Source: Cyanobium sp. M30B3
Lineage (GTDB): Bacteria > Cyanobacteriota > Cyanobacteriia > PCC-6307 > Cyanobiaceae
Direction: 5' to 3'
Assembly: GCA_018399015.1 (NCBI GenBank)
Contig: CP073761.1
Span: 2,046,001-2,110,000, forward strand
DNA: 64,000 bases
Numbering within the stretch: position 1 is the first letter of the stretch; each line of letters opens with the position of its first letter. Both the position numbers and the translations under genes were made by a program. Under the pieces are notes generated by a model. That model was given only the letters and a program-made list of their open reading frames with translations, made no database searches and was not told the origin of the DNA. Below are positions 3,790 to 22,410 of this stretch, piece after piece.

Positions 3790-4831
3790 TGGCGACCATG
3801 GCCGGCTGATCGACCCAAGAGGACAGAGCAGGCCTGCAGAGCGGCTGAGGCCTGGGCTGATGCACCTTGAGCACAGGGTGCAGGTGGATGCGGCAGAAGC
3901 CTATGGGGCCATGGCGGCGGTGGTCCCCTTGGGTGAGTTCCGCCCGTTGGTCGCGGAGCAGGACTTCTATCAGGAAATCGGCCTGCTCCAGATCAACCAG
4001 CTGCGGCTGATGTCCAGGGCGAGCGCGCCGGTGAAGTTGATCCTTAACCCCAAAGCGTGCCTGCCTCTGGTGGCGTGCTTCTCGGGGTGTCGGTTCGTCC
4101 GCACACCGGAAGGCGTCTTGGCCAGTTGCACAGGAGGTGGCTTGCTGCTGCCCTCCGGGCCGATTGACGCCTGGGGTGCGTCCAGTTCGGTAGTGATGGC
4201 CTTGGATCCTGGGGATCTCACCCGTGCGGCGGCGGCGATGGCCGGCACCGCCGGCACCTTGGCGCCCCGTGCTGGGGCAGCCCCGGAGATCTGCCGCTTC
4301 CAGGCCCGCGAACTCAGCGGCCTGCAGGCCCGGCAGCTGCATGCACTGATGCAGCACCTGGATGCCTGCCTCGGCTGCCATCCCGCCCTGCCGGCACGGC
4401 TGGGCCTGGATGACGTGCTGCTGCGGATGGTGGTGAGCTGGCTGCAGCCCCAGCTGCTGGAGGAAACCGCAGCCGATCGCCGGCGCATCCACGGGCGGGC
4501 CGGGGGCAGCAGCTTTGACGAACTGATCGACTACATCCGCGCCAACCTCGACCAGCCCCTGCGCCTGAGTGACCTCGAGCGCAGGAGTCACTATTCCAAA
4601 CGCGCTCTGCAGTACGCCTTCCGTGAGCGGCTGGGCTGCACACCGCGCCAGTGGATCCGCGAGCAGCGGCTGGAGCTGGCCATGGCCCAGCTGGAGCAGG
4701 GCGGGCGGCGCTGCTCGATCCGGGCTGTCGCCCTGGCCTGTGGCTACCGGCACATGGGGCTGTTCAGCAGCGACTTCAAGAAGCGCTTTGGCCTCACACC
4801 CAGCGCCGTGCACTGGGGGGAATTGCGCTAG
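3782..4831 (+). CDS. AraC-family transcriptional regulator
   Basis: A 349-residue regulator. The N-terminal ~220 residues resemble the AraC/cupin-type sensory domain of RipA/FeaR-like proteins. The C-terminal ~100 residues hold two helix-turn-helix units: LSDLERRSHYSKRALQYAFR and then IRAVALACGYRHMGLFSSDF, ending KKRFGLTPSA. An upstream ATG at 3593 lies inside the preceding gene and is unlikely; ATG 3782 gives an 8-base overlap with that gene. Ligand and targets are unknown. Confidence 0.85.
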   Translation: MADGDHGRLIDPRGQSRPAERLRPGLMHLEHRVQVDAAEAYGAMAAVVPLGEFRPLVAEQDFYQEIGLLQINQLRLMSRASAPVKLILNPKACLPLVACFSGCRFVRTPEGVLASCTGGGLLLPSGPIDAWGASSSVVMALDPGDLTRAAAAMAGTAGTLAPRAGAAPEICRFQARELSGLQARQLHALMQHLDACLGCHPALPARLGLDDVLLRMVVSWLQPQLLEETAADRRRIHGRAGGSSFDELIDYIRANLDQPLRLSDLERRSHYSKRALQYAFRERLGCTPRQWIREQRLELAMAQLEQGGRRCSIRAVALACGYRHMGLFSSDFKKRFGLTPSAVHWGELR

Positions 4832-5120: not shown

Positions 5121-5435
5121 ATGCACCCCAGCGCCGTCACCGGCAAGCGGCCGCCGCTCTCCCCTCAGGACGGCTGGCTGAGCAATGGCCGCCAGGTGTT
5201 GCACTTCCGGCCCCTCCGCTACAGCCGCTTCTCCCAGGCGCTGGAGCTCACCAGCGGCGAGCTGATCCCCGGCCAGGTGCCGCTTCTCAAGTGCCGCAAG
5301 GAGATCACCCGCGAGGAAGCGATCAAGCTCTGGGCGCAGAAGCGCAAGCAGGGCTGGCAGTCCTGCGAGCCCCAGTGGACGCCGCCGCCCGAGGTGAAGC
5401 CACCGGCTCGTCGCCCCGCCGCCAGCATGGGCTGA
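5121..5435 (+). CDS. DUF1651 domain protein
   Basis: A 104-residue protein with the DUF1651 pattern: DGWLSNGRQVLHF near the start, ELIPGQVPLLKCRKEITREE, then KLWAQKRKQGWQSCEPQW. The family is found mainly in marine and freshwater Synechococcus and Prochlorococcus, often in variable regions; its function is unknown. ATG 5121 is chosen because the domain begins just after it. A damaged, inverted second copy of its 3' part lies at 14850-14999. Confidence 0.8.
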   Translation: MHPSAVTGKRPPLSPQDGWLSNGRQVLHFRPLRYSRFSQALELTSGELIPGQVPLLKCRKEITREEAIKLWAQKRKQGWQSCEPQWTPPPEVKPPARRPAASMG

Positions 5436-5449
5436 CCTGGAATCCTGTT

Positions 5450-5692
5450 GTGCTGCTGAACCCCCTCTGTCCATTCACCACAGCCAAGCTGCTGGCCCTC
5501 AAGGCCACGGTGCTGCTGCTGCTCACCCTGCTGATCAAGGCCAAGATCCGAATCACCGCTTTCTCAGCCCTCGGCATCGTCCTGCTGCTGCTGCAGACCC
5601 TGGTGTTCCTGGCCATCAGCGGCGGCCTGGTGCTCGCTGCTGGCGGGGCAGCGATCTACAGCACGCAGAAGCGCCGGCCCGCTGTGGGCTAA
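5450..5692 (+). CDS. Small two-helix membrane protein (copy 1)
   Basis: From GTG 5450 the product is 80 residues with two hydrophobic helices (about residues 17-30 and 38-65) and the basic end STQKRRPAVG. It lies 14 bases after the DUF1651 gene. A second copy of identical length, ~80% similar by eye, is on the minus strand at 14607-14849, also next to DUF1651 sequence, so the pair moves or was duplicated as a unit. Function unknown; conservation of length and frame in both copies argues that it is a real gene. Confidence 0.65.
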   Translation: MLLNPLCPFTTAKLLALKATVLLLLTLLIKAKIRITAFSALGIVLLLLQTLVFLAISGGLVLAAGGAAIYSTQKRRPAVG

Positions 5693-5726
5693 GCCCAATC
5701 CGCGATCAGAACAAGCCCTGAGCACA

Positions 5727-5759
5727 ACAAAGCCCGGAGCGCTGGCCCCGGGCATTTGT
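5727..5759 (+). terminator. Hairpin terminator after membrane-protein gene (copy 1)
   Basis: acaaa-GCCCGG, a 10-base loop, then CCGGGC-a-tttgt. The flanking A and T runs extend the stem, so it could work in both directions. The same hairpin follows the second copy of the gene at 14560-14590. Confidence 0.7.
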
Positions 5760-6192
5760 CTGCTCAGCCGTGGTGTTGTCCCAGGGGATCGGTCCCAAGG
5801 GGGTCGGGCGCAGCTGTGCGAGGTTTTTGCTTGGCAACAGCCGTGATCGTTTTCAGATCAAAGAGTCTTCAGTTGTGGGCGGAGCTGCCGGCGCTGGCAC
5901 CTGGGGCCAGGTGTCGATTGGGACGTTCCGTTGGGTCCGGGGCACCTCAGGCGATGCAATGGACGGCGACTCTGGCTACACGCCAGGAACGTCAGAGATC
6001 CGTCGAGAGTGTTGGAGCAGGGGCCGGATCGTCAGCGCGCTCCTGACTGGTGCTCAGGGGGGGTGTCGTCCATCCGTGGAGCCTCCGAATCCCGTTGCAT
6101 CCACGATGGATCTGCCGGCCAGGGCCGGCAAGGGCAGCAGCGCGTTCGACACCGCTCGTTACCAGCGGCAATCGGTCTTCATGAAGGGGGCT
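5760..6192. other. Gene-free stretch
   Basis: No convincing gene. Short frames exist on the plus strand (for example one with MDLPARAGKGSSAF near 6105), but none shows a family motif. The first 50 bases resemble sequence beside the second copy of the duplicated unit near 14.5 kb. Confidence 0.4.
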
Positions 6193-6900: not shown

Positions 6901-7257
6901 ATGCACAAACTCCTTCAGCGAGGAGGTAGCAGCCCCGCCCAGAGGGTTGTTGCTACGGCAATCGGGCTGGTGGTGCTGCTGGGCAACGCCACCCCAGGCC
7001 GTGCAGAATCCTGGAAGAGCTGCAGCTACAACGACAGCCCCATTCCCTGCCGCGACAGCCACCGCCCCGATGGCACGGTGCGGATCACCTGGCAGGACGG
7101 CCAGGCGATGACCTACCGATTGGTGCAGGACGGCTTCCCGATCTCCACGCTGCGCGACAGCCTGGGCGGCATCTGGGAGAGGGAGATCCTCATCCAGGGC
7201 AATGCCGTGTTCACCAATCCGGCCAACGGCAACCACATCGTTGTTCCCTTGCGCTGA
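6901..7257 (+). CDS. Small exported protein (full copy)
   Basis: From ATG 6901 the 118-residue product has a positive N-terminus, a hydrophobic stretch VVATAIGLVVLLG and a likely signal cleavage after GRA. The mature part has two Cys (SCSYNDSPIPC) that could form a disulfide, then a compact domain with VRITWQDGQAMTYRLVQDG. The C-terminal part matches the partial gene at 1-203. No family is recognised. It precedes an SNase-like gene, as in the other copy, so the two may function together. Confidence 0.72.
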   Translation: MHKLLQRGGSSPAQRVVATAIGLVVLLGNATPGRAESWKSCSYNDSPIPCRDSHRPDGTVRITWQDGQAMTYRLVQDGFPISTLRDSLGGIWEREILIQGNAVFTNPANGNHIVVPLR

Positions 7258-7374
7258 AGCAAGCAGATGCAGGTGCTCTGAGCAGAGCTCCAGAGGCTGT
7301 GCAACCCGCTGGCACTGATGCAGGTCCTGCATCTCAGTTCCTCCAGCTATTGATGCGTGGTGCAGAGTCGAGCC

Positions 7375-8034
7375 ATGTTCCGACCTGGTCACGTCCCCAG
7401 CGCCCTGGCGAGTGCCCTGGCCCTAATCGCCATCGCACTGGCACCGGCCTGTGCCGTTGCCAGACCCATGGCCAAAGTGGTGTCGGTCGGCGATGGCGAC
7501 ACCATCCGGGTGCGGATGAACGGGAAGCCGATCACCGTGCGCCTGGCCTGCATCGACGCACCAGAGACGGCCCAGCCTCCCTATGGCCAGCAGGCCCGCA
7601 GTTACCTGCAGCAGCGCCTGCCGGCCGGCAGCGCGGTGCGATTGGACGAGAAGACCACCGATCGCTACGGCCGGCTGGTGGTCGAAGTGTTCAGCGGCGT
7701 CAACATCAACCTGGCGATGGTGGAGGACGGCCAGGCCTTTGCCTACCGCCAGTACCTGGGCGACTGCAACGCCAGGGAGTACCTGGACGCTGAGTACCGC
7801 GCCAGCCGGCGCCGCTATGGGGTCTGGCAGGTGGAAGGGGGCATCATCCGGCCCTGGGACTTCCGCAAGAGCCGCCGCTCTGCAGTGATCCCTGATGGCA
7901 CAACCCCTGACGGCCGCCGCTACAGCTGCAGGGTGATCGGCTCCTATGCCCGTGCCCAGGAGTTGCTGCGCCAGGGGCACACCTATCTCGACAGCAACCG
8001 AGACGGGGAGGCCTGCGAATCGCTGCGGCGCTGA
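7375..8034 (+). CDS. Exported SNase-like nuclease with C-terminal excalibur-type motif (copy 2)
   Basis: Second copy of the nuclease at 307-963, with the same layout: signal segment MFRPGHVPSALASALALIAI, SNase motifs GDGDTIRV, VRLACIDAPE and YGR, and a C-terminal NRDGEACESLRR. Here the canonical DAPE is kept. ATG 7375 is used; GTG 7357 is an alternative. Both copies are intact, so both could make active nuclease; differences are scattered as in a moderately old duplication. Confidence 0.87.
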   Translation: MFRPGHVPSALASALALIAIALAPACAVARPMAKVVSVGDGDTIRVRMNGKPITVRLACIDAPETAQPPYGQQARSYLQQRLPAGSAVRLDEKTTDRYGRLVVEVFSGVNINLAMVEDGQAFAYRQYLGDCNAREYLDAEYRASRRRYGVWQVEGGIIRPWDFRKSRRSAVIPDGTTPDGRRYSCRVIGSYARAQELLRQGHTYLDSNRDGEACESLRR

Positions 8035-14335: not shown

Positions 14336-14559
14336 CGCACCATCCCCCGGTGTGGACAGCAAGCCATCGGGCGCCCTGGCACTGGCCGCAGCAGCAAAGC
14401 CAGTGACGCCGCCCTGGAGCACCTGGAGCAGCGGCTCCGATCGGCTGGAGCAGCTCGTGCTGCTGATCGCCCTGCAGGTGGATGTCCCGCCAGAGGCGAT
14501 CGCCCAGCTGGCCGCCCCGGCTGCCGATCCCCTGGAACAGAACCACGGCTGAGCAGACA

Positions 14560-14590
14560 CATGCCCGGGGCCAACGCTCCGGGCTTTGTT
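14560..14590 (-). terminator. Hairpin terminator after membrane-protein gene (copy 2)
   Basis: Minus-strand aacaaa-GCCCGG, 10-base loop, CCGGGC. It is the counterpart of the hairpin at 5727-5759 and lies just past the stop of the membrane-protein gene. Confidence 0.65.
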
Positions 14591-14606
14591 GTGCGGCGGG
14601 ACGGGC

Positions 14607-14849
14607 TCAGCCCACAGCCGGCCGGCGCTTCTGCGTGCTGACGATCGCGGCACCAGCAGCGGCCAACACCAGGCCGCCGCTGATGGCCAGGAACACCAGG
14701 GTCTGCAGCAGCAGCAGGAAGAGTCCAATGGCCGAGCCCGTTGCGATCTGCACCCTGGCCTTGATCAACAGGGTGAGCAGCAACAACACCGTGGCCTTGA
14801 GGGCCAGCACCTTGGCTGGGTTGAATGGGCAGAGAGGGTTCAGAAGCAC
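14607..14849 (-). CDS. Small two-helix membrane protein (copy 2)
   Basis: An 80-residue protein from GTG 14849, the same length and layout as the copy at 5450-5692: LLNPLCPF at the start, two hydrophobic helices and the end STQKRRPAVG. The frame is intact although the DUF1651 gene in front of it is damaged. The longer frame from 14960 runs through DUF1651 remnants in a shifted frame and is not the likely start. Confidence 0.6.
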   Translation of the reverse strand: MLLNPLCPFNPAKVLALKATVLLLLTLLIKARVQIATGSAIGLFLLLLQTLVFLAISGGLVLAAAGAAIVSTQKRRPAVG

Positions 14850-14999
14850 GACGGTTGTCCTGGTGTCCCCATACTGGCGACGGGGCGTCCGGCCGGTGGC
14901 TTCACCTGGGGTGGCGGTGTCCACTGGGCCTCGCATCGCCTGCTCGCGGGTGCTCTCCATGCGGCATTTGAGTAGCAGCGGCTGGCCTGGGATCAGCTC
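14850..14999 (-). pseudogene. DUF1651 remnant
   Basis: Minus-strand translation gives ELIPGQPLLLKCRMESTREQ, matching the intact DUF1651 gene at 5121. About 15 codons are then missing and, in another frame, EAQWTPPPQVKPPAGRPVAS follows, matching its C-terminus; the stop codon has been changed. The N-terminal part is absent. It is a deletion-damaged inverted copy. Confidence 0.7.
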
Positions 15000-15198: not shown

Positions 15199-16032
15199 TT
15201 AGGGGCGGATCGTCCCCTCAGTGGCATTCGCCACCATGAAACGGTCGCGGCCAGCAACCTTGGCAGCCAGCAAAGCATGATCAGCCCTGCGGTAAACCTC
15301 GGTGTACTCCTCGCCAGCGAGATGTTCAGCCACGCCGATACTCACCCGCGGCTGCACCGCACCCGCTGGAAAATCCACCGTCAACCGCCGCACGGTGTCC
15401 AACATCCGCTGGGCCACCAGTTGGGCCGTGGCCAGATCCGCGCCGGCCAGTAGGGCCAGGAATTCCTCTCCACCCCAGCGCGCGCAGCAGTCGTAGTCCC
15501 TCAGCCCCTGCTGCAGGGCCTGCGCGAGAGCAACGAGCACCTTGTCGCCGGCTTCATGGCCATGGGTGTCGTTAATCGTCTTGAAGCGATCCACATCCAT
15601 GGCGAGCAGGGAATAGGTGGTGTTGTCGCGCTGGGTGCGGTGATCCTCGCGGCGACAGCGGTCCACAATCAACCGTCGGTTGGGAAGGCCGGTGAGCTGG
15701 TCATGGGTGGATGCTTTCTTCAGCGCCTTGTTGAGGTCGTTGAGCATCGCCTGGTAGCGATCTGAAATCCGGATCGCTTTCTCCAGCTTGCGGATCTGCA
15801 GGTCGTAGCGTTGGGAGATGTAATGCACCCGCTGCTGGACGTCTGTCTGATAGCGATCCGAAATTTGGGTGATCCTCTCCAACCGGAGTAGCTGTTGCTC
15901 CATCCGCTCCAGAATCTCCGCCAAGGCATCACGCAGCGGATGGTCCCGATAACGCTCATCCGCCAGCAATTGGGCGACTCGCTGCTCAAGCTCGTCCTCT
16001 GGTCCCCAGGGGCGGAATGGATTCATCGGCAC
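15199..16032 (-). CDS. siaD: SiaD-like diguanylate cyclase
   Basis: The N-terminal ~110 residues form a coiled coil with repeated RISDRYQ-type heptads, without receiver or membrane segments. The GGDEF domain follows: THDQLTGLPNRRLIVDR, MDVDRFKTINDTHGHEAGD and the active motif GGEEF. It makes c-di-GMP from two GTP. In Pseudomonas, SiaD is activated by direct binding of unphosphorylated SiaC. It is the last gene of siaABCD; GTG 16032 overlaps the siaC stop by one base (TAGTG), with ATG 16026 as alternative. Confidence 0.9.
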   Translation of the reverse strand: MPMNPFRPWGPEDELEQRVAQLLADERYRDHPLRDALAEILERMEQQLLRLERITQISDRYQTDVQQRVHYISQRYDLQIRKLEKAIRISDRYQAMLNDLNKALKKASTHDQLTGLPNRRLIVDRCRREDHRTQRDNTTYSLLAMDVDRFKTINDTHGHEAGDKVLVALAQALQQGLRDYDCCARWGGEEFLALLAGADLATAQLVAQRMLDTVRRLTVDFPAGAVQPRVSIGVAEHLAGEEYTEVYRRADHALLAAKVAGRDRFMVANATEGTIRP

Positions 16033-16451
16033 TATTCAACGAACGGAGCAGCGGTGATCGTGAAGCTGAAGGTATAGTCTTCCTTGAACTCTTCACCCAA
16101 CTCAGCTGAGCGTGGGTTGCGGCTGTCATACAACCAGATCACACACAACTCCCGCCCCGCCTCAAAAGCCATTTGTAAACGATCGAAGACATCGATCATT
16201 GCCCTGATGCTGCTGGTGTTGAGATAATTCAGATGCAGCTCAACCCGGAGAGGCAAGGCTGTTTCGCTGAGAAACGCCTCAACCCAGCCAATGATGCCGG
16301 AGAACAGATCATAGGTGTTTTCAGGATATGACTCACCCGACATCTTCAAGACACCGGAAGCCCAATCAGCCTGGATGGCTGGGGTTGATTGGGTAGCAGG
16401 CAGGCTGAGGTTCCTACCTGGACCAACCTCGATTGAATGCTGTTGGGTCAT
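16032..16451 (-). CDS. siaC: SiaC-like DUF1987 protein
   Basis: A 139-residue DUF1987/SiaC-family protein. Family features: an early strand GVLKMSGESYPENTYDLFSG containing the phosphorylatable Thr/Ser region, RVELHLNYLNTSSIRAMIDV, and CVIWLYDS near the C-terminus. In known systems SiaB phosphorylates SiaC, SiaA dephosphorylates it, and dephosphorylated SiaC activates SiaD. It lies 6 bases after siaB and overlaps siaD. Confidence 0.88.
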   Translation of the reverse strand: MTQQHSIEVGPGRNLSLPATQSTPAIQADWASGVLKMSGESYPENTYDLFSGIIGWVEAFLSETALPLRVELHLNYLNTSSIRAMIDVFDRLQMAFEAGRELCVIWLYDSRNPRSAELGEEFKEDYTFSFTITAAPFVE

Positions 16452-16457
16452 GGCGAA

Positions 16458-17015
16458 TCAGATGGTGGCCCGAAGTGTAAAGAATGCTTTGCCAGCCTCC
16501 AGCGGATCCAGGCTGCATTCCAAGGGAGCCGTGGTTTTACGGGCGATCTCAATCAGGCCCAGGCCAGCTCCAGAGGACTGCCGCTCATCCCGAGGACTGC
16601 GTAATTGCTGCTTGTAAAGGGACTTCAATGCCGGCTTGTCCATCCCAGCCAGCTCGGCAACCCTCTGAACCAGCCGCTGTCCATCGGCATGCTCGACAAC
16701 ATTGCCGGCTGATACCACATAGCTACCCTGCGGGGACTCGGCAATGACCACCGTGGCCGTAGCTTCAGGCTCGCCATAGCCCTGCGCAGCGCTATAGTGG
16801 CGAATATTCTGACTCATTTCAATATAGGCACTAAAGACATCCATGGCCGAAGACATGCATTGCCGCGTGGACTGAATATGCTCCTTAAGGGCAATGCCAA
16901 TCTCGCTGATCAACGTACGGGAAATCGGACCGTTGAAGCAGATCAAGATCCGCTCAGAAGAGAAGAAGTCCCGCAGGGAGACAAGACTTCGATGGGTGGT
17001 GAATGATGTGGACAT
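16458..17015 (-). CDS. siaB: SiaB-like protein kinase
   Basis: A 185-residue SiaB-family (DUF6272) protein with a degenerate histidine-kinase-like ATPase fold. Visible: FSAYIEMSQNIRHYSA (the N-box like Glu/Asn helix), VVSAGNVV and SSGAGLGLIEIARKT (the G-box like region). In the known pathway it phosphorylates SiaC and so keeps the cyclase off. It is second in the operon, 50 bases after siaA. Confidence 0.87.
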   Translation of the reverse strand: MSTSFTTHRSLVSLRDFFSSERILICFNGPISRTLISEIGIALKEHIQSTRQCMSSAMDVFSAYIEMSQNIRHYSAAQGYGEPEATATVVIAESPQGSYVVSAGNVVEHADGQRLVQRVAELAGMDKPALKSLYKQQLRSPRDERQSSGAGLGLIEIARKTTAPLECSLDPLEAGKAFFTLRATI

Positions 17016-17065
17016 TGCCGCTACCGACTGGGTTCAAACTAGCAACAAGCGAAAGCCGACGGCAA

Positions 17066-18271
17066 TCATGGAACGCGGAACGAAAAAATTGTGATGTCAT
17101 CCCGCTGGGGATGGCGTCCCATGAACGCAGCCAGGGAATCGCGAAACGCCTGATGCTGTTCAGCTAAGGGCTTGGTGGCATGGTCCAGCAGCCAGCGCTC
17201 AAACCGTTGCGTACCCAGGCCGAAACCATCCTCGCCCCCGGCTTGATCCATGATCCCATCGGTGGCCAGGTAATAGGTGTACTCCCTGGCCAGTGGAATG
17301 GTGTGGTCGTTGTAGGTGCCGGCACGGCGGTCCCACAGCGGACGGTTGTCAGCCCGTGCCATCGAAACCGAGCGACCATTACTCCAGTAGAGTGAGATAC
17401 GAGCTCCAGCGAAGCGCAGGATACGTCGCTCAAGGTCCAGGAACACCAGGCCCGCATCCATTGAGGTGGCCATCGCCCGGGTAATCCGGGCCTCACCAAG
17501 TACACCATGCATTGCCGCATTGGTGGCCTGGAGCACTTGGGCTGGTGATTCCATCCCAACCTGCTGGATTGAGCGGTCCAGTCCAGCCCGGGCCAACATC
17601 GTCATCATCGCACCGGGTACACCGTGGCCGGCACAATCAGCGACCCCGGCAATGCAGCGGGAGGCGTCGCCATGGAACACGTAGTAATCGCCACCAACAC
17701 GATCGCGGGGTTGCCAGAGTACGAAGTAGTCCCCACCAAAGCGCTCGGTCAGCTGACGGTCAGGCAGAATGGATTTCTGTAGAAGAGCTGCATAGCGGAT
17801 CGAATCATCGATTTGCTGATTCATCTCACGCAGAAGATGGTTGGCATCATCCAACTCTTGCATGGCCTGACGCTGCCGAAGAAGAACGCCATTGAAGGCA
17901 TGCGCCAATCGGGCAACTTCATCATTCCCCTGAACTTCAAGGAGTGTGCGATCGAGCGAATCGTTGAAAGCCAGGCTGTCAGACTGGTGGACAAGACGGC
18001 CCAGCGGCCTGATCACTCTCACTGCAACGATGCGATAAGAAATCCCCAGGCCAACCACCAGTAAGAGCGCCAGGAAAATTGTGGTGGCAGCATGCTGGAC
18101 ACTGGATGTCTGGTCTTGAAGCAGTTGCCAGGCGGAGAGCAGCAATGACGCCAATACCACGCCATTAAGGCAGGCCAACAGCAGAAAAATCTGCTGAATA
18201 GTGAGAGCATGCTCGCCCCGGTGGCGACTCTTGGCCATCAAACCAAACCGTTTGGAGCCAACTTTAAACAT
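17066..18271 (-). CDS. siaA: SiaA-like membrane HAMP-PP2C (SpoIIE-type) phosphatase
   Basis: First gene of the sia operon. Two transmembrane helices near the N-terminus (around IFLLLACLNGVVLASLLLSA and TTIFLALLLVVGLGISY) are separated by only about a dozen residues. A HAMP linker (VIRPLGRLVHQSDSL) and a short coiled coil come next. The PP2C/SpoIIE domain has PRDRVGGDYYVFHGD, GVADCAGHGVPGAMMTM and QRDDITIFSF, with the metal-binding Asp residues present. It should dephosphorylate SiaC. Pseudomonas SiaA has a large periplasmic part; here it is almost absent. ATG 18271 or 18238 is the start; the frame extends to TTG 18307. Confidence 0.87.
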   Translation of the reverse strand: MFKVGSKRFGLMAKSRHRGEHALTIQQIFLLLACLNGVVLASLLLSAWQLLQDQTSSVQHAATTIFLALLLVVGLGISYRIVAVRVIRPLGRLVHQSDSLAFNDSLDRTLLEVQGNDEVARLAHAFNGVLLRQRQAMQELDDANHLLREMNQQIDDSIRYAALLQKSILPDRQLTERFGGDYFVLWQPRDRVGGDYYVFHGDASRCIAGVADCAGHGVPGAMMTMLARAGLDRSIQQVGMESPAQVLQATNAAMHGVLGEARITRAMATSMDAGLVFLDLERRILRFAGARISLYWSNGRSVSMARADNRPLWDRRAGTYNDHTIPLAREYTYYLATDGIMDQAGGEDGFGLGTQRFERWLLDHATKPLAEQHQAFRDSLAAFMGRHPQRDDITIFSFRVP

Positions 18272-18335
18272 TGCAGCAACCACTGGCAGCCAGCTTCCAT
18301 GGCACAATCATGGGAGCCCCATGGGCTGACCGTCT

Positions 18336-18420
18336 GGAGAGGTGGTCGAGTGGTTGATGGCTCCGGTCTTGAAAACCGGCGACCCGCAAGGGTCCGTGGG
18401 TTCGAATCCCACCCTCTCCG
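18336..18420 (+). tRNA. tRNA-Ser (anticodon UGA)
   Basis: Acceptor GGAGAGG (18336-18342) pairs with CCTCTCC (18413-18419), discriminator G. The anticodon loop cttgaaa gives TGA. A long variable arm and the T arm with ggttcgaatcc are present, all as expected for a class II tRNA-Ser. CCA is not encoded. Confidence 0.95.
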
Positions 18421-18999
18421 TTCCCTGAAAACCCAGTCCCCAACAGGGTTCTGAGGCCTTACCCCACCCTCCAGGCAGAGCCCGCCTGGGGGCAAGATCA
18501 GGGCCATGCTGTCCCGCCTGCGACACCAGGCCAGTAAGGACATCCACCGTGCCTCAATCTCTTGACTCTTGGTCCAGCAGCCGTAACAAGAGATGTCATC
18601 AAATACTTGACCTTCGCCGGGCTGATCACATGCTTGGATGCCATTCGGCAGTGAGCATCAAACCGGTCCCAGCAACAACTGCGTGGGTCGCAGCTGCTGA
18701 TTGACCCGTTGCGTGATATCACCAAAGGCCGACATCCCAGCCCATAGGCTCTGTGGTCATCGGCAACGATGCGCAGCCTAAGCCATCGCGATCAAACCAC
18801 ATATAATAACAGGATTGGTGCTCATCGTGGGGATGAGGAGTCTGGAGGCAGGATGATCAACACTGGGGGCTCCAACCTGTTCATGGCTCGGCATGAGTTG
18901 CTATGCAGGACATGATTGGGAGCGGGGTGTGTCCATCCGCGTCAAGGACAATCAAGTCCAGGTGCCCCCCTCCTTGAGCGCTCGTTGTCAAGAGGTTCC
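18421..18999. other. Gene-free stretch after tRNA-Ser
   Basis: No gene is supported on either strand. A TATAAT string at 18802-18807 lacks a matching -35 element. Lower GC than the surrounding core regions. The edge between the tRNA and this stretch is a plausible insertion point, but no duplicated tRNA end was found. Confidence 0.4.
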
Positions 19000-21000: not shown

Positions 21001-21005
21001 TCATC
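20940..21005 (-). pseudogene. Fragment of a cyAbrB-type gene
   Basis: The minus strand reads DEFEIKRGRKEIQIIPLAEV, matching DEFEIKLGRKQIQLLPLG of the intact cyAbrB at 8185-8565. Only this C-terminal strand region is left, overlapping the 3' end of the PP2C gene in another frame. It suggests a past recombination joining a cyAbrB gene end to the PP2C gene. Confidence 0.55.
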
Positions 21006-22410
21006 CAGAACGATCGCAACGATCAAGCCCAGGAGCGCACCCCCCCCTGGGAGCAGGGGCGGGAACGGCTGGGGGAGCAGCGGGTCGGGCCTGGGTGCGC
21101 CATTGCAGCGCAAGCGCCTGGTCGAGGGCGGGGCAGCTGCCTGGCACCGGGAATGGCTGCTCCCTGCCGGATGGCGGCATGGCGGCCTGCGGCGTCTCGG
21201 TGACTGGCGGGGGAGTGAGCGGGGGCAGGCTCCAGGCGATCAACGCCCCCAGGGGGTCCTGAGCGGCGAAGGCCAGCAGCTGCTGGCGATCGCTGCTCCC
21301 AGTGCGGAGCTGGCTGAACTGCTCACGGCGCTGGGTGAGAGTTCCGGCAATCAGGCCAGGGGTTCGGCACAGTCGCTCCGCCTGCCGCTGGATAGCGGGC
21401 CTCGGGTCAACCGGCTTGGGTGGGGTCTGGGCAAGGGGGGACCCTCCCCAGCCCTGCAACCTTGCCAACCAGGCAACAGCGCCCATGGCCAGCGCAACCG
21501 GCACGAGCAGCAGCAGGGCAAGGGCCACGCCCGGGGGCCGGCTGATCGCTGGCAGGGTCACGGCGCGCCTGGGCCCAGGGATCTGCCCAGCTGATGGCGA
21601 CCAGCGGCCCACGGCGATGGAGAGGTCATCCCCACTGCCAGCGGCGCTGATCTCAGCGAGGCCCTCCGCCAGTTGGTGGCGGTCCTGGATGCCGACCACC
21701 TGGCTGCAGAGCTCCAGGAAGTCCGCGTCGGTGGCGCAGGACTTGCGCACCCCATCGGTGCTGATCAGCAGCGACAACGGGGGACTGAAGGCGGGGATGG
21801 CCTGCAGCCGGGCCCGCTCAGCCCATCGCGCCCGCGCCTCGGTGAGGCAGAGGCTGGCCGTGGCCTCGCCTGCCCCCTGCAGATCGCCTTCCTCACTGAG
21901 AAGCACGGGGCCGGTGCCGCCAACCCGCACCAGATCCCAGTCCCCGAGACCGGTGCATCCCCACCAGGTGGGTGCCAGCACCAGGAGTCCCAGCGTGCTG
22001 CCGTAGCGCGAGGAACAGAACGGTTCACCGCCAGCGGCACCGCCGGGATCCCGCTGCCAGTGCCGCTCAATCGCCTGCAGCCAGCGCGTCTGAATCGCCT
22101 CCGGCAAGCCCTCAGCCAGCAACTGCTGCCAGGCCCGGTGGTCGTCGAGGGGGGTGGTTTGCAGAGCCGCCCGCACGGCCTCGGCGGCCTGCTCGCAGGC
22201 CAGGCGGCTGCCGCTGTCGCTGCAGCGGTAGCGCTCGCCGCCATGGCCATCGGCCACCGCCAGCAGCTGCAGGCAGCCGCCCGATGGGGCCCGCAGCTGG
22301 CGCACCAGGGAGAAGTCCTGACACACCACTCCCCTGCGGCGGTGGGCCGCGCCGATCACGGTGCAGTGCCAGGCCGGCCTCCAGCCGCCATGGGCAGCGG
22401 AGCTCACCAC
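21001..22410 (-). CDS. PP2C-family Ser/Thr phosphatase with C-terminal membrane anchor
   Basis: About 469 residues. The N-terminal ~280 residues form a PP2C domain: VVCQDFS, LLAVADGHGGERY, LLISTDGV and GDDLSIAVGRW supply the metal-binding Asp residues. One membrane helix follows (ALALLLLVPVALAMGAVAWL), then a Pro-rich tail of ~150 residues. GTG start overlaps the VWA gene's end by 7 bases. It would reverse the neighbouring kinase's action. The extreme C-terminus (RGGCAPGLDRCDRSG) comes from sequence that overlaps a cyAbrB remnant, so the original end may have been replaced. Confidence 0.85.
   Translation of the reverse strand: MVSSAAHGGWRPAWHCTVIGAAHRRRGVVCQDFSLVRQLRAPSGGCLQLLAVADGHGGERYRCSDSGSRLACEQAAEAVRAALQTTPLDDHRAWQQLLAEGLPEAIQTRWLQAIERHWQRDPGGAAGGEPFCSSRYGSTLGLLVLAPTWWGCTGLGDWDLVRVGGTGPVLLSEEGDLQGAGEATASLCLTEARARWAERARLQAIPAFSPPLSLLISTDGVRKSCATDADFLELCSQVVGIQDRHQLAEGLAEISAAGSGDDLSIAVGRWSPSAGQIPGPRRAVTLPAISRPPGVALALLLLVPVALAMGAVAWLARLQGWGGSPLAQTPPKPVDPRPAIQRQAERLCRTPGLIAGTLTQRREQFSQLRTGSSDRQQLLAFAAQDPLGALIAWSLPPLTPPPVTETPQAAMPPSGREQPFPVPGSCPALDQALALQWRTQARPAAPPAVPAPAPRGGCAPGLDRCDRSG

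Follow-up and report, generated by a model that had tools for sequence, protein, structure and literature searches.

We analysed a stretch of 64,000 nucleotides from Cyanobium sp. M30B3 (contig CP073761.1; hereafter the window), which covers bases 2046001–2110000 of a closed, single-contig genome of 3180296 bases (3.18 Mb). Four genes lie on the minus strand at 15199–18307 of the window in the order siaA-siaB-siaC-siaD, and they are predicted to form one operon encoding a siaABCD partner switch (Table 1). The gap between siaA and siaB is 50 bases and that between siaB and siaC is 6 bases, and siaC and siaD overlap by one base. Pfam and NCBIfam agreed on the family of all four proteins, PDB matches identified a solved Pseudomonas aeruginosa homologue for each, and SiaB, SiaC and SiaD exceeded their NCBIfam equivalog cut-offs. 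An earlier note on this DNA had described a complete siaABCD operon with the gene order, sizes and overlaps of Pseudomonas, located in a cyanobacterium. The order, the short gaps and overlap and the families of SiaB, SiaC and SiaD agreed with that description, as did the host, the nearest named relatives being Cyanobium, Synechococcus and Vulcanococcus; however, SiaA differed in size and its sensor was absent.

Table 1. Features of the sia locus in the window.
Feature	Position	Strand	Evidence
siaA	17066..18307 at most	-	Pfam SpoIIE 78 bits and HAMP 31 bits; PDB 6k4e, E 3e-88
siaB	16458..17015	-	Predicted SiaC threonine kinase (DUF6272); NF038264 256 bits (cut-off 225); PDB 6kko_A, E 6e-60
siaC	16032..16451	-	NF038265 177 bits (cut-off 150); PDB 6kko_C, E 4e-41
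siaD	15199..16032	-	Diguanylate cyclase; NF038266 307 bits (cut-off 290); PDB 7e6g_A, E 7e-74
tRNA-Ser(UGA) (tga)	18335..18421	+	ARAGORN
Two SiaA transmembrane helices with 18-residue loop	18023..18190	-	Kyte-Doolittle scan; alignment of 29 cyanobacterial SiaA

A transfer RNA (tRNA) gene, tRNA-Ser(UGA), adjoins siaA and is divergent from it, which places the operon on the 5' side of the tRNA. The longest siaA open reading frame (ORF) begins at TTG 18307 (413 amino acids), and the likelier start, which aligns with those of relatives, is ATG 18238 (390 amino acids). The gap to the tRNA is 27 bp from the former and about 96 bp from the latter; the 65 bp reported earlier would fit an ATG near 18271. 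A promoter and terminator scan gave no usable excess over shuffled sequences. The genome encodes one SiaC, 13 GGDEF domains including that of SiaD, and three PilZ domains. The PilZ proteins are plausible receivers of cyclic diguanylate (c-di-GMP), but a tie to Sia is not supported by evidence in the genome.

We compared the window proteins with the P. aeruginosa chains at the contact and catalytic residues given in PMC8457831 and PMC7647112. SiaC retained Thr68, Asn67, Ser69, Arg103, Leu107, Glu110, Asp114, Tyr65 and Tyr31 and differed at Asp29 (Glu) and Met75 (Ile); its Thr79 corresponds to the phosphosite Thr68. In the SiaD stalk, Ser50/Gln54 and Ser82/Gln86 belong to the SiaC-binding motifs according to PMC8457831. 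All four residues were kept in the window protein, in which two predicted SiaC-binding motifs, ISDRYQ, lie at 57–62 and 89–94. Most of the second motif was also kept, with changes at Arg74 (Lys), Val78 (Ala) and Arg90 (Asn). Furthermore, SiaD retained Glu181 and Glu182, the I-site residues Arg170, Asp173 and Arg201, and an intact GGEEF. SiaB retained Glu61 (its own Glu66), the predicted catalytic residue according to PMC7647112.

The same residues were conserved across 31 cyanobacterial sets of Sia proteins. SiaC Asn67 and Ser69 were found in 31/31 and Thr68 in 30/31, and SiaB Glu61 was found in 30/31. For SiaD, Glu181/182 and Arg170/Asp173/Arg201 were present in every set, Ser82 and Gln86 in 30/31, and Ser50 and Gln54 in 27/31; in G001 the second motif was changed and the first kept. 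The metagenome-assembled genome G203 (locus L080) has siaA in two pieces, a stop in siaC and Ala at phosphosite Thr68, and this broken operon may represent decay or an assembly error.

SiaA was the only protein that did not reach its family cut-off. It scored 396 bits against NF038263 (cut-off 700) and matched only positions 291–657 of 658, because the N-terminal sensor is absent. The window protein, of about 390–413 amino acids compared with 663 in Pseudomonas, consists of a two-helix hairpin, a HAMP domain and a PP2C domain. Its helices occupy ORF residues 40–58 and 77–95. Among the 29 cyanobacterial SiaA with a readable N-terminus, the sensor was absent and the hairpin present in all; a hydropathy scan called two helices, 13 to 23 residues apart, in 28, and in the remaining one (G035) it called the second helix only, although the motif of the first transmembrane helix (TM1) was nonetheless in the sequence. 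This motif, SIQxxF...N..VL.YL with Asn in mid-helix, was conserved in 90% or more of the 29 proteins; as a search pattern it matched 25/29, the other four differing at one or two places. The conservation of TM1, including its Asn, argues against a bare membrane anchor. The HAMP domain and an active-looking PP2C domain were recognized by Pfam, the PDB match and the residue check. The window SiaA keeps the PP2C aspartates 457, 474, 534, 600, 604 and 653; Asp600 and Asp653 were present in 31/31 cyanobacterial sets, and Asp457 and Asp474 in 29/29 with letters there. SiaA is thus predicted to be a SpoIIE-type PP2C phosphatase for phosphorylated SiaC, membrane-anchored and sensor-less.

The P. aeruginosa SiaA is 663 residues long, and its PP2C domain begins at 453 (PMC7647112). 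PMC12834913 attributes membrane-stress sensing to the first 336 residues, a part that comprises both the helices and the sensor, and reports that replacing it in strain ATCC 27853 abolished the response to cooling. Because the helices and the sensor were removed together, this swap cannot say which part senses. The cyanobacterial SiaA separates the hairpin from the sensor naturally, and the hairpin form may still sense.

We next consider which genomes carry these genes. In a sample of 300 genomes of the Cyanobium family, SiaC (NF038265) was found in 29, belonging to 6/59 genera, and SiaB (NF038264) in the same 29; within the window's genus, 3/13 genomes had SiaC. The family count is a lower bound, since G006, scored without SiaC and SiaB, carries siaD beside nrdJ at a contig end (L171, G006:C103, 158–933; 75% DNA identity to that of the window), indicating that counts made on draft genomes underestimate presence. 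Across the phylum (386 genomes, a sample that overlaps with that of the family), Pfam SiaC matched seven genomes. Five matches were strong, all in the Cyanobium family, and two were weak (G404 and G401); BLAST found no relative of SiaB, SiaC or SiaD in the stretches from the latter two. In a scan of genome contigs, 10 of 12 loci came from Cyanobium, Synechococcus, Vulcanococcus limneticus and uncultured cyanobacteria, and the other two were distant (35–37%). A SiaC relative was found in 19 plasmid records, at no more than 60% identity and with Azospirillum giving the best match, and a phage collection searched with SiaB gave no match. Since clear SiaC matches were limited to one family in the phylum sample, siaABCD likely entered the Cyanobium family anciently from outside, the distant source presumably being a proteobacterium.

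The position of the operon was then compared in 30 relatives' loci, namely 28 fetched from genomes of relatives, one of them the short G012 contig, and two from named relatives. ARAGORN found tRNA-Ser(UGA) upstream of siaA, divergent and with its 5' end towards siaA, in 29/30. The single miss (L063) is a 5.3-kb contig that breaks off inside siaA; on another contig of the same genome (L132), the start of siaA lies beside the tRNA. The gap between siaA (longest ORF) and the tRNA ranged from 41 to about 2620 bp; in most genomes of genus g6, a Ca2+/H+ antiporter-like gene and a pentapeptide-repeat gene, both named by eye, lie between them. On the other side, nrdJ, a ribonucleotide reductase gene of 800-odd residues, also named by eye, adjoins siaD in 27 of the 30 sia loci with enough flank (G012 left out). 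The exceptions are the window, G065 and G169. In the window's genome nrdJ lies 0.8 Mb away from the operon, a rearrangement having since parted the two; in G065 nrdJ was not found.

The slot between nrdJ and tRNA-Ser(UGA) was also found without sia. In three sia-less genomes of the window's genus (G005, G007 and G011), nrdJ ends 44–69 bases before tRNA-Ser(UGA). Beyond the genus, 25 of 30 nrdJ loci were sia-less, and 12 of these 25 had the tRNA within 1.5 kb downstream on the same strand. Among 20 further sia-less genomes chosen to span genera, 15 had it within 2.5 kb on the same strand, one of the five misses being a 187-base stub. No Sia remnant was detected in the sia-less slot stretches at E 1e-3. 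The tRNA is single copy in the genus search, other matches being more distant serine tRNAs or fragments. The occurrence of the slot without sia in other genera indicates that the slot is older than its occupant. Thus, sia is an old, family-wide locus and not a recent insertion in the window's genome, and within the slot the operon has undergone losses and, at least once, exchange between genera.

Exchange between genera was assessed using trees. An RpoB tree of 28 genomes (30 were asked for, of which two lacked RpoB) supported the genera g1 (that of the window), g10, g24 and g45 as clades; support for g6 was weak. The joined SiaABCD tree (33 rows) agreed with RpoB for g24, g45 and the main g6 group. 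However, G203 and G227 of g10 grouped with the window's genome (G000) and G012 (100/99), and this group was nested in a larger one that also contained g45 and G001. A single clade was rejected both for g10 (p 3e-8) and for g1 (p 0.002). RpoB rejected the grouping of g1 with G203 and G227 (p 0.001), whereas NrdJ did not reject a g10 clade (p 0.36), indicating that the operon, not clearly nrdJ, changed hands between genera in the slot. At least one transfer of sia between genera into the same slot is therefore established by these tests. With P. aeruginosa added, the 31 cyanobacterial rows formed one side of a branch (98). The window proteins shared 49–56% identity with those of P. aeruginosa over the aligned parts, overlapping their identity to the most distant cyanobacterial sets, so that the cyanobacterial clade is deep. 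The earlier note had set a vertical cyanobacterial history of SiaC and SiaD against transfer; the genes do form one cyanobacterial clade that mostly tracks RpoB by genus, but at least one vertical history was rejected.

The tree could also be read as showing that the window lineage obtained the operon from another genus of the family, not by descent. The grouping of G000 and G012 with the two g10 genomes, away from G001 of the same genus, and the rejection of one g1 clade are consistent with such a donor. Nevertheless, we consider it rather unlikely, because G000 and G012, both members of g1, form a sister pair (98/92), descent within g1 with g10 as the receiver is simpler, G001 is a long branch, and the g10 clade is not rejected by NrdJ.

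We propose, with a probability of roughly 0.82, that a siaABCD switch of the Pseudomonas kind entered the ancestor or an early branch of the Cyanobium family, that SiaA lost its sensor before or after this entry, and that the switch would work as expected by homology. SiaB would phosphorylate SiaC on Thr79 (Thr68 in P. aeruginosa), and phosphorylated SiaC would be unable to hold SiaD. SiaA would act as a dimer, anchored in the membrane by its two-helix hairpin and with HAMP as the relay, and its PP2C phosphatase would remove the phosphate from SiaC. Free SiaC would then bind the two stalk motifs to give an active SiaD dimer, and the resulting rise in c-di-GMP would favour attachment or clumping, the I-site of SiaD providing product feedback. 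Because no part of SiaA is left outside the membrane, the signal would have to act on the hairpin or HAMP, for example as a physical change of the membrane, or else the switch would be set by expression and by adenosine triphosphate (ATP) at SiaB. A bolder version, which we regard as possible but tentative, holds that the hairpin itself (the TM1 Asn, the short loop and the second helix) is a membrane-state sensor acting via HAMP, and that the operon is a cassette exchanged between genera by recombination of its flanks.

Several points weigh against the proposal of an anciently acquired switch that still works. The direction of exchange between genera is not proved. The tree contained only three outside rows (P. 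aeruginosa and two Azospirillum), which makes the single-clade result thin, and a sensor-less relative could exist outside cyanobacteria. In addition, G065 and G001 are on long branches. Finally, SiaC–SiaD binding, the kinase and phosphatase activities and the effect on c-di-GMP or clumping are predictions from sequence. A different objection is that the shortened SiaA is a decaying relic and that the switch, without input, is stuck on or off. The sensor is indeed missing in 29/29 readable SiaA, sia has been lost in many genomes, and in G203 siaA is split, siaC carries a stop and the phosphosite is Ala. Yet nearly every set retains its catalytic and contact residues and the phosphosite, and the hairpin is conserved with an Asn inside TM1 that a bare anchor would not need; we therefore judge decay to be improbable.

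The guanine-plus-cytosine (GC) content of the operon was 0.574 compared with 0.691 for the window, and no scanned 3.1-kb stretch in the rest of the window was as low, confirming the earlier observation that the operon is poorer in GC than its neighbours. The operon was below its flanks in 31/31 cyanobacterial loci (-0.017 to -0.180); the Azospirillum operons were hardly GC-poor (-0.008 and -0.021). Of eight GGDEF domains examined among those of the window's genome, seven had a GC of 0.64–0.70 and one had 0.58, so that low GC is not simply a trait of GGDEF genes. Its persistence could reflect repeated exchange or constraint. Low GC was rejected as a mark of recent arrival, being common to all 31 cyanobacterial loci. 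Integration of an element at the 3' end of the tRNA was likewise rejected: the operon is on the 5' side, and the genome search showed no second 3'-end copy next to it. A prophage or integrative element around the operon was also set aside: in chosen ORFs between 1 and 22.4 kb, Pfam and PHROGs identified Rad52, a nuclease and two regulators, one of the AraC type and one AbrB-like, and none of the ORFs scanned encoded an integrase.

In the sia-less relative G009, 58 bases from the 3' part of tRNA-Ser(UGA) are present as a partial copy at 4511–4568 of L127 (G009:C19). Rad52 and a siphovirus Gp157-like gene lie within a few kb of it, which shows that this tRNA is used as a target by a phage-like element. 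A recent integration of a foreign siaABCD at tRNA-Ser in the window's genome could draw on this partial copy beside phage-like genes, on the GC difference and on the patchy distribution in the genus (3/13 genomes by SiaC), but it is very improbable given that the same tRNA neighbour and low GC are family-wide, that the operon lies on the tRNA 5' side with no second tRNA copy beside it in the window's genome, that its nearest relatives are cyanobacteria of the same genus and family, and that the SiaD gene of G006, of the same genus, still adjoins nrdJ. The earlier note had taken both the low GC and the tRNA neighbour as signs of transfer. Neither served as such, because the first is shared by all 31 loci and the second by 29/30 relatives, on the side opposite to 3'-end integration. 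What stands of the transfer claim is that the operon probably entered the family long ago and, as the trees support, was later exchanged among its genera; a recent arrival in the window's genome is not upheld.

The left flank of the window is a repeat-rich, plastic stretch. It contains a direct repeat of about 840 bases (1–837 and 7055–7905; 86–92%), the second copy of which overlaps a nuclease-like ORF; a 430-base inverted repeat (5364–5792 and 14524–14935), the second arm of which lies just beyond siaD; and the Rad52 gene at 1252–2127. A second gene for a PP2C-type phosphatase is located on the minus strand at 21001–22410, about 2.6 kb past the tRNA.

Picocyanobacteria are usually regarded as free-living plankton, and the operon provides a candidate clumping switch for them. 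Our literature search, which had most subscription journals outside its reach, found no account of siaABCD in cyanobacteria; judged by their listing, the papers on siaABCD dealt with Pseudomonas or other bacteria or used the name for something unrelated, and Sia was not mentioned in the searched passages of the literature on c-di-GMP in Cyanobium. Within the literature searched, this would be the first siaABCD described outside heterotrophs. The cyanobacterial SiaA also represents a natural deletion of the sensor: if it still responds, the hairpin suffices. Moreover, the locus would be a clear example of an operon whose gain, loss and exchange all took place at the same chromosomal site.

Among known systems, the cyanobacterial operon resembles SiaABCD of P. 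aeruginosa (PA0172–PA0169) in gene order, the four families, the phosphosite, the SiaD stalk motifs, GGEEF, the I-site and the PP2C metal residues. It differs in that SiaA has no sensor domain between its two transmembrane helices, the host is a phototroph, and the operon locus and downstream targets are not the same. The operons on Azospirillum plasmids (NC_016623 and NZ_CP054616; L060 and L061) share the siaA-siaB-siaC order with a diguanylate cyclase gene last. In contrast to the cyanobacterial operon, siaC and the cyclase gene are separated by a gene for a HAMP histidine kinase, the cyclase lacks the first SiaC motif, and the two SiaA proteins keep about 127–128 residues between their helices. 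The combination of siaABC, histidine kinase and cyclase is predicted to be a further form of the switch, one that incorporates a two-component protein. The SiaC/DUF1987 loci of Sulfurimonas and Desulfobacterales (L058 and L059) are alike in having adjacent SiaB- and SiaC-like genes, but their SiaC identity is 35–37% and the fetched stretch holds no SiaD of the cyanobacterial kind.

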